Part shown: positions 7,391 through 60,160 of the stretch, piece after piece
Layout of the letters: the number at the start of each line of letters is the position of its first letter
Numbering within the stretch: the first letter of the stretch is position 1
Assembly (NCBI GenBank): GCA_947073515.1
Contig: CAMTMC010000005.1
Span: forward strand, 27,302 to 91,301
DNA from: an uncultured bacterium
GTDB lineage: Bacteria > Bacillota > Clostridia > Oscillospirales > Oscillospiraceae
Reading direction: 5' to 3'
Length of the DNA: 64,000 nucleotides
The notes under the pieces: model-generated
Database searches by the model: none
The model's input: the letters and a program-made list of their open reading frames with translations, nothing else
What the model was told of the DNA's origin: nothing
Program-made: the position numbers and the translations under genes

Positions 7391-7751
7391 GGCAAGCAGG
7401 CTGGACAGCCGCGCGGCCGGGGCGAAAGGCCCGGCTGTGAGGAAAGTCCGGGCTCCGCAGGGCAAGGATAACGGGTAACACCCGCCGGGGGCGACCCCAG
7501 GAAAAGTGCAACAGAAATAGACTGCCCGGCTGGTCTTGGCCAGCCAGGTAAAGGTGGAAAGGTGAGGTAAGAGCTCACCCGATGGCGTGTGAAAGCGCCC
7601 ATCGCTGTAAACTCTATCCGGAGCAACGCCGTGGAGGGACATACAGGCCGGCCCGGCCGTCCCGGGGAGGCGGCTTGAGCGCGCTGGCGACAGCGCGTCG
7701 AGATAGATGGCTGTCTTAAACGACAGAACCCGGCTTACAGGCCTACTTGCC
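7391..7751 (+). ncRNA. rnpB: RNase P RNA, class A
   Basis: Conserved GAGGAAAGTCCGGGCTCCGCAGGGCA, AGTGCAACAGAAATAG and terminal ACAGAACCCGGCTTACAGGCCTACTTGCC; 5' GGCAAGCAGGC pairs with 3' GCCTACTTGCC (P1). Confidence 0.95.
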
Positions 7752-7829
7752 TCCGTCCAGACGCTGTCTGGGCGGCCACAGGGGCAAAATCCGCTGCCCC
7801 CGCCGAATGAAATGAAAGGAGTACCACGC

Positions 7830-39781: not shown

Positions 39782-39786
39782 GGAGC

Positions 39787-39822
39787 AATCAGGGAGGACA
39801 CGACAGCGTGTCCTCCCTGATT
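39787..39822. terminator. Perfect 16-bp hairpin after the 39203 gene, likely terminator
   Basis: AATCAGGGAGGACACG ACAG CGTGTCCTCCCTGATT; lacks long U tract. Confidence 0.6.
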
Positions 39823-39867
39823 CGTAGTAAGCGGTGAAAACAATTTATCTTCCAGCTTGCGGCCACG

Positions 39868-39948
39868 ACCAAGTCAAAGCTCAATTTGACATCTGGCGAT
39901 TTTGACCGGGTTTGCGCTCAAAACCAAATCGAAGCCCAATTCGGCACC
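39868..39948. repeat. Pair of diverged 26-bp hairpin repeats (39868-39893, 39923-39948)
   Basis: ACCAAGTCAAAGCTCAATTTGACATC vs ACCAAATCGAAGCCCAATTCGGCACC: 20/26 identical, all six differences are transitions. Confidence 0.6.
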
Positions 39949-40208
39949 CACAAGGGGTACGCCAATCCGTAAGGCGGCAGAGCCACCGGCGGCTGTGCGT
40001 CAGATCTGATTTGGAGAGGCGGAACAAAGGAGTAGATGGCGGTTTTCATAAAAAATGATCGGAGCAATGCAGCCTTTCACCCCACATCCCCCATCTCCTC
40101 TCAGCCCCGAGTCCAGCGAAGCGAATCGGGGCCGAAGGCGAAAAAATTCCCACCAGAGTACAGCTTTCGGCAAAGCCGGAAACGGGACGGTGATGGGAAT
40201 TTCTTTAC

Positions 40209-40293
40209 TGGTACGGGCATGGGGACTTGAACCCCAACGCATCGCTGCATGAGAACCTAAATCTCACATGTCTACCAATTCCATCATGCCCGC
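40209..40293 (-). tRNA. tRNA-Leu (anticodon UAG), CCA encoded
   Basis: Minus strand GCGGGCATGATGGAATTGGTAGACATGTGAGATTTAGGTTCTCATGCAGCGATGCGTTGGGGTTCAAGTCCCCATGCCCGTACCA; loop TTTAGGT. Confidence 0.95.
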
Positions 40294-59884: not shown

Positions 59885-60160
59885 GGGAATAAAAAAACAG
59901 CCCCCTGTCCCACATGGGACAAGAGCTGCACTCCTGCGATACCACCCAAATTGATGTGAACACACATCCGCTCGCCTCACGCGCCATCACGCGTGCCCGA
60001 TGGATAACGGGTGGGTCCCCGTCGGCATCTACTGGGCCGGAGCCGTTCAAGCCGCCCTCGAAAGTCCATTCACCTGGCCACGCCCCGCCCCGATCTCACC
60101 ACCCGGGACTCTCTGAGGGATTGCTAAACCGGCTACTACTCTTTCTCAAAGGTTTGCTCT
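59885..60160 (-). promoter_or_regulatory. T-box leader, TGG specifier (tryptophan-type)
   Basis: Minus strand: GAGTAGTAGCCGG, AGAGAGTCCCGGGTGGTGAGATC, specifier GAA-TGG-ACTTTCGAGGG (60066-60068), AGTAGATGCCGACGGG, T-box GGGTGGTATCGC (59936-59947), terminator CAGCTCTTGTCCCATGTGGGACAGGGGGCTGTTTTTTT. Confidence 0.88.
59891..59928 (-). terminator. T-box regulated intrinsic terminator
   Basis: CAGC..TTGTCCCA TG TGGGACA..GGCTG TTTTTTT. Confidence 0.85.

Follow-up and report, generated by a model that had tools for sequence, protein, structure and literature searches.

In the window, i.e. the whole analysed stretch of 64,000 nucleotides, a spacer of 373 nt lies between a 192-aa gene and a tRNA-Leu gene. 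ARAGORN places the tRNA-Leu on the minus strand (40293-40209), so that the spacer is located downstream of the tRNA. No convincing ORF fills the spacer, in line with the sequence-only reading, which had found no credible ORF there and had proposed 'a structured RNA or a dispersed structured repeat'; the sequences that it named were all recovered at the positions given. Judged by comparison with related loci, the spacer is not random sequence but a patchwork of degraded copies of one structured repeat that is dispersed (Table 1). The intact unit of this repeat is ~110 nt long and comprises a hairpin, P1, followed by AGAGGAGGAGC and then by a second domain, the closing helix of which ends in GCGACGACGA.

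Table 1. Features of the spacer and the adjoining tRNA gene (window coordinates 39826-40293).
Feature	Position	Strand	Basis and remarks
Copy A, truncated to 5' flank plus P1 left arm	39826-39893	+	Aligned locally to a clean tRNA-Lys-adjacent copy (L010) of the own genome
Copy B, 5' flank plus P1 left arm	39898-39938	+	CCAAATCGAAGCCCA at 39924-39938; second of the two 26-bp repeats
Second dispersed repeat, core of ~58 nt	39939-40007		Inserted into copy B's P1 loop, running opposite to P1
Copy B, right arm of P1 (GATTTGG), AGAGGCGGAACA and P2 region	40008-40072	+	3' end lost; aligned to the clean copy L010
Third P1-like hairpin, conserved loop CCAGCGAAGCG	40105-40131	+	Weak; 19.4 bits against model R1; fold z -1.3 (+), -2.8 (-)
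Probable tRNA-Leu terminator, long stem and T-run on the tRNA strand	40136-40208 (hairpin 40141-40205)	-	Fold; position directly 3' of the tRNA
tRNA-Leu	40209-40293	-	ARAGORN; Rfam RF00005

The two 26-bp repeats to which the sequence-only reading had drawn attention (39868-39893 and 39923-39948, with six differences, every one a transition) represent the left arms of a tandem pair of damaged copies, the first repeat being the end of copy A. In the alignment to a clean copy, A is covered at 39826-39883 and B at 39898-39938 and 40008-40068, and both break off at the identical loop point, GCCCA. Copy B is matched by a covariance model over 39924-40031 (E 4e-4, 188 kb scanned), and the segment 40005-40070 matches contig C9 of the own genome (E 5e-7). 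Its P1 loop holds an insert of ~69 nt of another repeat, the family of which is present in 24 of the 61 genus genomes; a related sequence occupies a P1 loop in another species, in the opposite orientation (L056, 864-975). In intact copies the left arm pairs with the right arm GGGTTCGATTTGG, a remnant of which is found in the window past the inserted sequence (40008-40014). The CGAA..TTCG motif reported for the second repeat is therefore present as sequence but is not a true stem, and the compensatory change from A-T to G-C that had been read within the 26-mer loses its meaning, because the real partner of the arm lies elsewhere; in the true P1 stem compensation is abundant across the family. 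The CCCCGA..TCGGGG inverted repeat was located as well (the third hairpin of Table 1) and is possibly the remnant of a third copy. In orientation copy B agrees with the copies that abut tRNA genes, but its 3' end is gone, and both window copies are probably inert remnants without an intact 3' end. This broken state had been overlooked, as had the mobility of the repeat and the part of the spacer that belongs to the tRNA-Leu terminator.

The latter part contains the AAATTCCCACC..GGTGATGGGAATTT stem, which is real: on the minus strand the outer hairpin (40141-40205) folds at -29.2 kcal/mol (z -5.9) and carries T6 at the stem end. It thus presents a stable stem followed by a T-run 3' of the gene, and on this predicted fold it is the probable intrinsic terminator of tRNA-Leu; a simple terminator scan left it unflagged because a loop limit of 8 was used. 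Compared with shuffled sequences, the entire 373-nt spacer gives z -1.4 (+) and -2.2 (-), the minus value including the terminator, and outside the terminator the spacer folds only slightly better than shuffled sequence. At 39787-39822, 3' of the 192-aa gene, a perfect 16-bp inverted repeat (AATCAGGGAGGACACG/CGTGTCCTCCCTGATT; z -9.3) is found in which a clear T-run is absent, and on this separate hairpin fall weak Rfam matches to microRNA models (39782-39827), far below the gathering scores. Similar GACACGA..CGTGTC hairpins close genes near other copies (L010, L011). Elsewhere in the window Rfam recognises RNase P RNA class A (7393-7753) and a T-box leader (59912-60158).

Relatives of a neighbouring protein place the host in the Oscillospiraceae. 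Within the own genome the spacer has matches at other sites, and a search with a cleaned-up copy recovered more, so the repeat is not single-copy; the copies lie next to tRNA-Ser, tRNA-Lys, tRNA-Leu and tRNA-Thr, just before tmRNA (recognised by its sequence; ARAGORN made no tmRNA call at that locus) and between protein genes. The covariance model of P1 that was built from seven of these copies matches 56 of the 61 genus genomes, with 0 to ~40 copies per genome and a frequent tandem arrangement at a spacing of 118-156 nt. Across the order it is positive in 22 of 197 genomes, mostly with few copies, and by these matches the element appears mainly confined to one genus and rare elsewhere in the order. 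Recurrence in genome and genus, together with covariation in both domains (see below), bears out the suggestion of a structured RNA or dispersed structured repeat. Rfam holds no family that covers the element, either in the window or in the clean copies, i.e. no described family was hit, and a literature search by topic and sequence words, with many journals outside its coverage, did not retrieve a description of it. For the counts given below, a scan for P1 plus tail yielded 154 candidate copies, of which 147 passed a loop filter and 130 had a recognisable 3' end; they derive from a ranked list, represent mainly the better-scoring matches of a few genomes and are not all independent. Among the arrangements encountered are three tandem copies, 138 nt apart, directly 5' of the tmRNA gene (L076, genome G010), and an enlarged composite of ~330 nt around the core in genome G006, of which the nine sampled copies (L077-L082, L239-L241) are closely similar.

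Three further ideas were pursued and abandoned. The spacer is not conserved at its own position: relatives of the neighbouring 192-aa gene exist, none with the tRNA or the spacer alongside. A coding role was dismissed since some copies lack the SD-ATG that is apparent in others, and no reading frame is maintained. As regards plasmids and phages, each record collection yielded a single partial match, and IMG/VR a single contig.

The consensus of the intact copies reads, in order, P1 CCAAATCGAAGCCCAGCGMAGCGGGTTCGATTTGG, AGAGGAGGAGC, the P2 hairpin and the 3' end TTTGCGACGACGA. P1 is a bulged hairpin of 35 nt, of which almost all inner stem positions vary with compensation and of which the loop is nearly constant; in one copy (L018) a part of P1 has been replaced. 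The second domain is closed by the pairing of GAGGAGGAGC with the 3'-terminal GCGACGACGA, in which (GA)G(GA)G(GA)GC stands against GC(GA)C(GA)C(GA), i.e. tandem G.A pairs between G-C pairs, and variants swap the three positions for full Watson-Crick sets (GGA/TCC, GGC/GCC, GAC/GTC, GCC/GGC, GAA/TTC). In three sequence groups 95-97% of the cells are standard pairs, and double-sided changes occur in 20-25 pairs versus means of 9-14 in column shuffles, which leave relatedness uncontrolled. The comparison thus argues for strong compensatory change and a conserved fold in both domains.

In 33 of the 130 copies, at tRNA genes of ten isotypes, the element is antisense to a tRNA gene, and a distance of 0-3 nt separates its 3' end from the CCA end. 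A run of A's in the element strand, which reads on the tRNA strand as a T-run 3' of the hairpin, is present in 34 of 36 tRNA-type copies versus 8 of the 94 others. At the orthologous tRNA-Leu the element is found at or near CCA in four genomes (G083, G020, G061, G028), and in five (G072, G075, G074, G013, G021) unrelated sequences or terminators are found instead. By their sequence the tRNA-type copies appear to supply a terminator-like combination of hairpin and T-run, and the tRNA-abutting pattern could in part reflect selection for terminators at tRNA ends.

The flanks of the copies provide the evidence on movement. Only 22 of the 131 copies still carry a target duplication, i.e. a direct repeat of which the downstream unit begins 100-116 nt beyond the P1 start; as controls, any other 17-nt bin contained at most two copies and mismatched flank pairs gave 2 of 262. 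At the duplication loci the downstream duplicate begins at the 3' end of the element (+104 to +112), and the gap between the upstream duplicate and P1 is 0-87 nt in most gene-tail cases and larger where a second element lies in between; from this constant start and variable gap it follows that, of the two junctions, only the one at the 3' end is fixed. In the examples inspected, the duplications vary in length from 28 to 196 nt and consist mostly of gene 3' tails. The 21 listed loci are mixed: they include gene 3' tails or other protein-gene sequence (among them smc and triosephosphate-isomerase-like tails, L234, L248, L249; gene names as read from the sequence, not from annotation), a gene 5' region (L252), tRNA paralogues or fragments (L200, L212, L221) and an element-derived repeat (L250).

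The spacer between smc and a RAYT gene is an example of such a site. In genomes G011, G027, G026 and G086 it contains the element and then, once more, the final 64-72 nt of smc, and in G020 and G019 the RAYT gene follows directly after smc, with neither element nor duplication. We read these as a filled and an empty site, the four filled sites being orthologous and counting as one or few events. Assembly artefacts are an unlikely source of the duplications, because the duplicate copies differ by 3-20% and one of them lies in a single-contig genome. These footprints indicate that the repeat is mobile. At the smc, tpiA-like and L208 sites P1 is preceded by 12-19 nt that are the intact target site in reverse complement, and inverted target-site copies of this length were noted just upstream of P1 at L156, L157, L160, L208, L234, L248 and L249; a rule by which the 5' flank is complementary to the 3' flank was nevertheless rejected, as the pattern is not general across copies.

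The region thus very probably consists of two decayed tandem copies, one of them interrupted by a repeat, of a ~110-nt non-coding mobile element with a fixed 3' junction and long target duplications. As for the way in which such an element might move, a folded single strand (RNA or ssDNA) would offer a defined 3' end to a target end, where it would be joined or copied in (by target-primed copying or by a RAYT-type nuclease), and a template switch or a wide stagger would produce the duplication. Insertions in gene tails would be tolerated, as the duplicated tail makes the gene whole again.

Several known systems come close to this description. Eukaryotic SINEs and LINEs are moved by target-primed reverse transcription and show a fixed 3' end, a ragged 5' end and variable target duplications. 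The element resembles them in each of these respects and in being a structured non-coding unit, whereas it differs from them in having a bacterial host and in lacking an A-tail. We infer that a target-primed RNA route fits the footprint. A bacterial SINE-like retroelement, i.e. a structured RNA on which a reverse transcriptase supplied in trans starts copying at the exact 3' end, primed by a nick in the target, is a possible but rather doubtful reading: it would account for the precise 3' junction, the variable 5' junction and the long variable duplications, and the RNA-like conserved fold with its tandem G.A motifs and the partly replaced P1 of L018 are consistent with it, but DNA too can form tandem G.A motifs and hairpins. 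Its fullest form, in which a trans-acting reverse transcriptase would copy a 110-nt structured RNA without a gene of its own into gene tails and tRNA 3' ends that have been nicked, and would leave long duplications of the target, we consider unlikely as it stands. MITEs, ERIC, NEMIS and RU elements share with the element the non-coding character, the size of ~100 bp and the intergenic dispersal; unlike MITEs, it lacks terminal inverted repeats (the ends are CCAAA.. and ..GACGA), and its duplications are variable (28-196 nt) where those of MITEs are short, of fixed length and a few bases only.

REPs and REPINs are defined by a palindrome of 20-50 nt after a conserved tetranucleotide, usually GTAG, and by a RAYT gene flanked by two inverted copies (PMC8266576, PMC2817692, PMC3116915). 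The element, with its 0 to ~40 copies per genome, is likewise a family of small, dispersed extragenic hairpins with conserved bulges, has a cognate-type RAYT in many genomes and shows tandem and mosaic arrangements as in BIMEs. It could be moved as ssDNA by RAYT (Y1 HUH), the enzyme binding the hairpin and cutting at the 3' end, which the neighbouring GAGGAGGAGC would select as a guide by base pairing; this reading, too, we regard as possible but rather doubtful. RAYT genes occur in 34 of 64 genus genomes; the median number of copies per genome is 12 with RAYT versus 5 without (P 0.007, uncorrected for phylogeny and genome quality), zero-copy genomes are absent among those with RAYT versus 5 of 28 among those without, four genomes have a copy immediately 5' of RAYT in the orientation of the gene, and a bulge-conserving hairpin next to a guide-like strand would suit the Y1 logic. 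These four adjacent cases, however, represent one orthologous smc site, and no RAYT was found in two of the genomes rich in copies (G006, ~40; G028, ~27). There is no conserved GTAG-type head, the conserved AGAGGAGGAGC being situated 3' of P1, and no inverted pair around RAYT: five of 30 RAYT loci have confident copies within ~1.5 kb, all upstream on the RAYT strand. The 110-nt unit, the second domain closed at the 3' end and the exact abutment to tRNA CCA ends are also unlike REPs, and a bias for the lagging-strand template, expected of IS608-like movement, is not seen (16 vs 19, P 0.74). Finally, IS200/IS605-type transposition does not produce large target duplications (PMC2817692), in contrast to the long ones observed here. 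The element thus falls outside the REP and MITE definitions that were tested.

That the element is a mere terminator module or REP-like repeat, spread by recombination and kept for ending the transcription of tRNA and other genes, seems quite improbable. Like intrinsic terminators, the tRNA-type copies (34 of 36) set a hairpin and T-run right after CCA, as read on the tRNA strand; the T-run is nonetheless limited to one subset, with 86 of the 94 other copies lacking it and keeping the core fold, and homologous spread leaves the duplications anchored at the 3' end unexplained. Scarcely credible is a single-copy local curiosity, made up of a terminator hairpin and chance inverted repeats: the full spacer does fold just slightly better than shuffles, but copies are present elsewhere in the genome and genus, and both window copies align to a clean one.

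Small mobile repeats are common in bacteria, and their movement is poorly understood. The present family, from gut bacteria with many sequenced species, retains clear insertion footprints (a fixed 3' end, long duplications and element-free sites), so that in this well-sequenced group the mode of movement is testable. It would also represent a mobile repeat that has repeatedly been turned into tRNA terminators.
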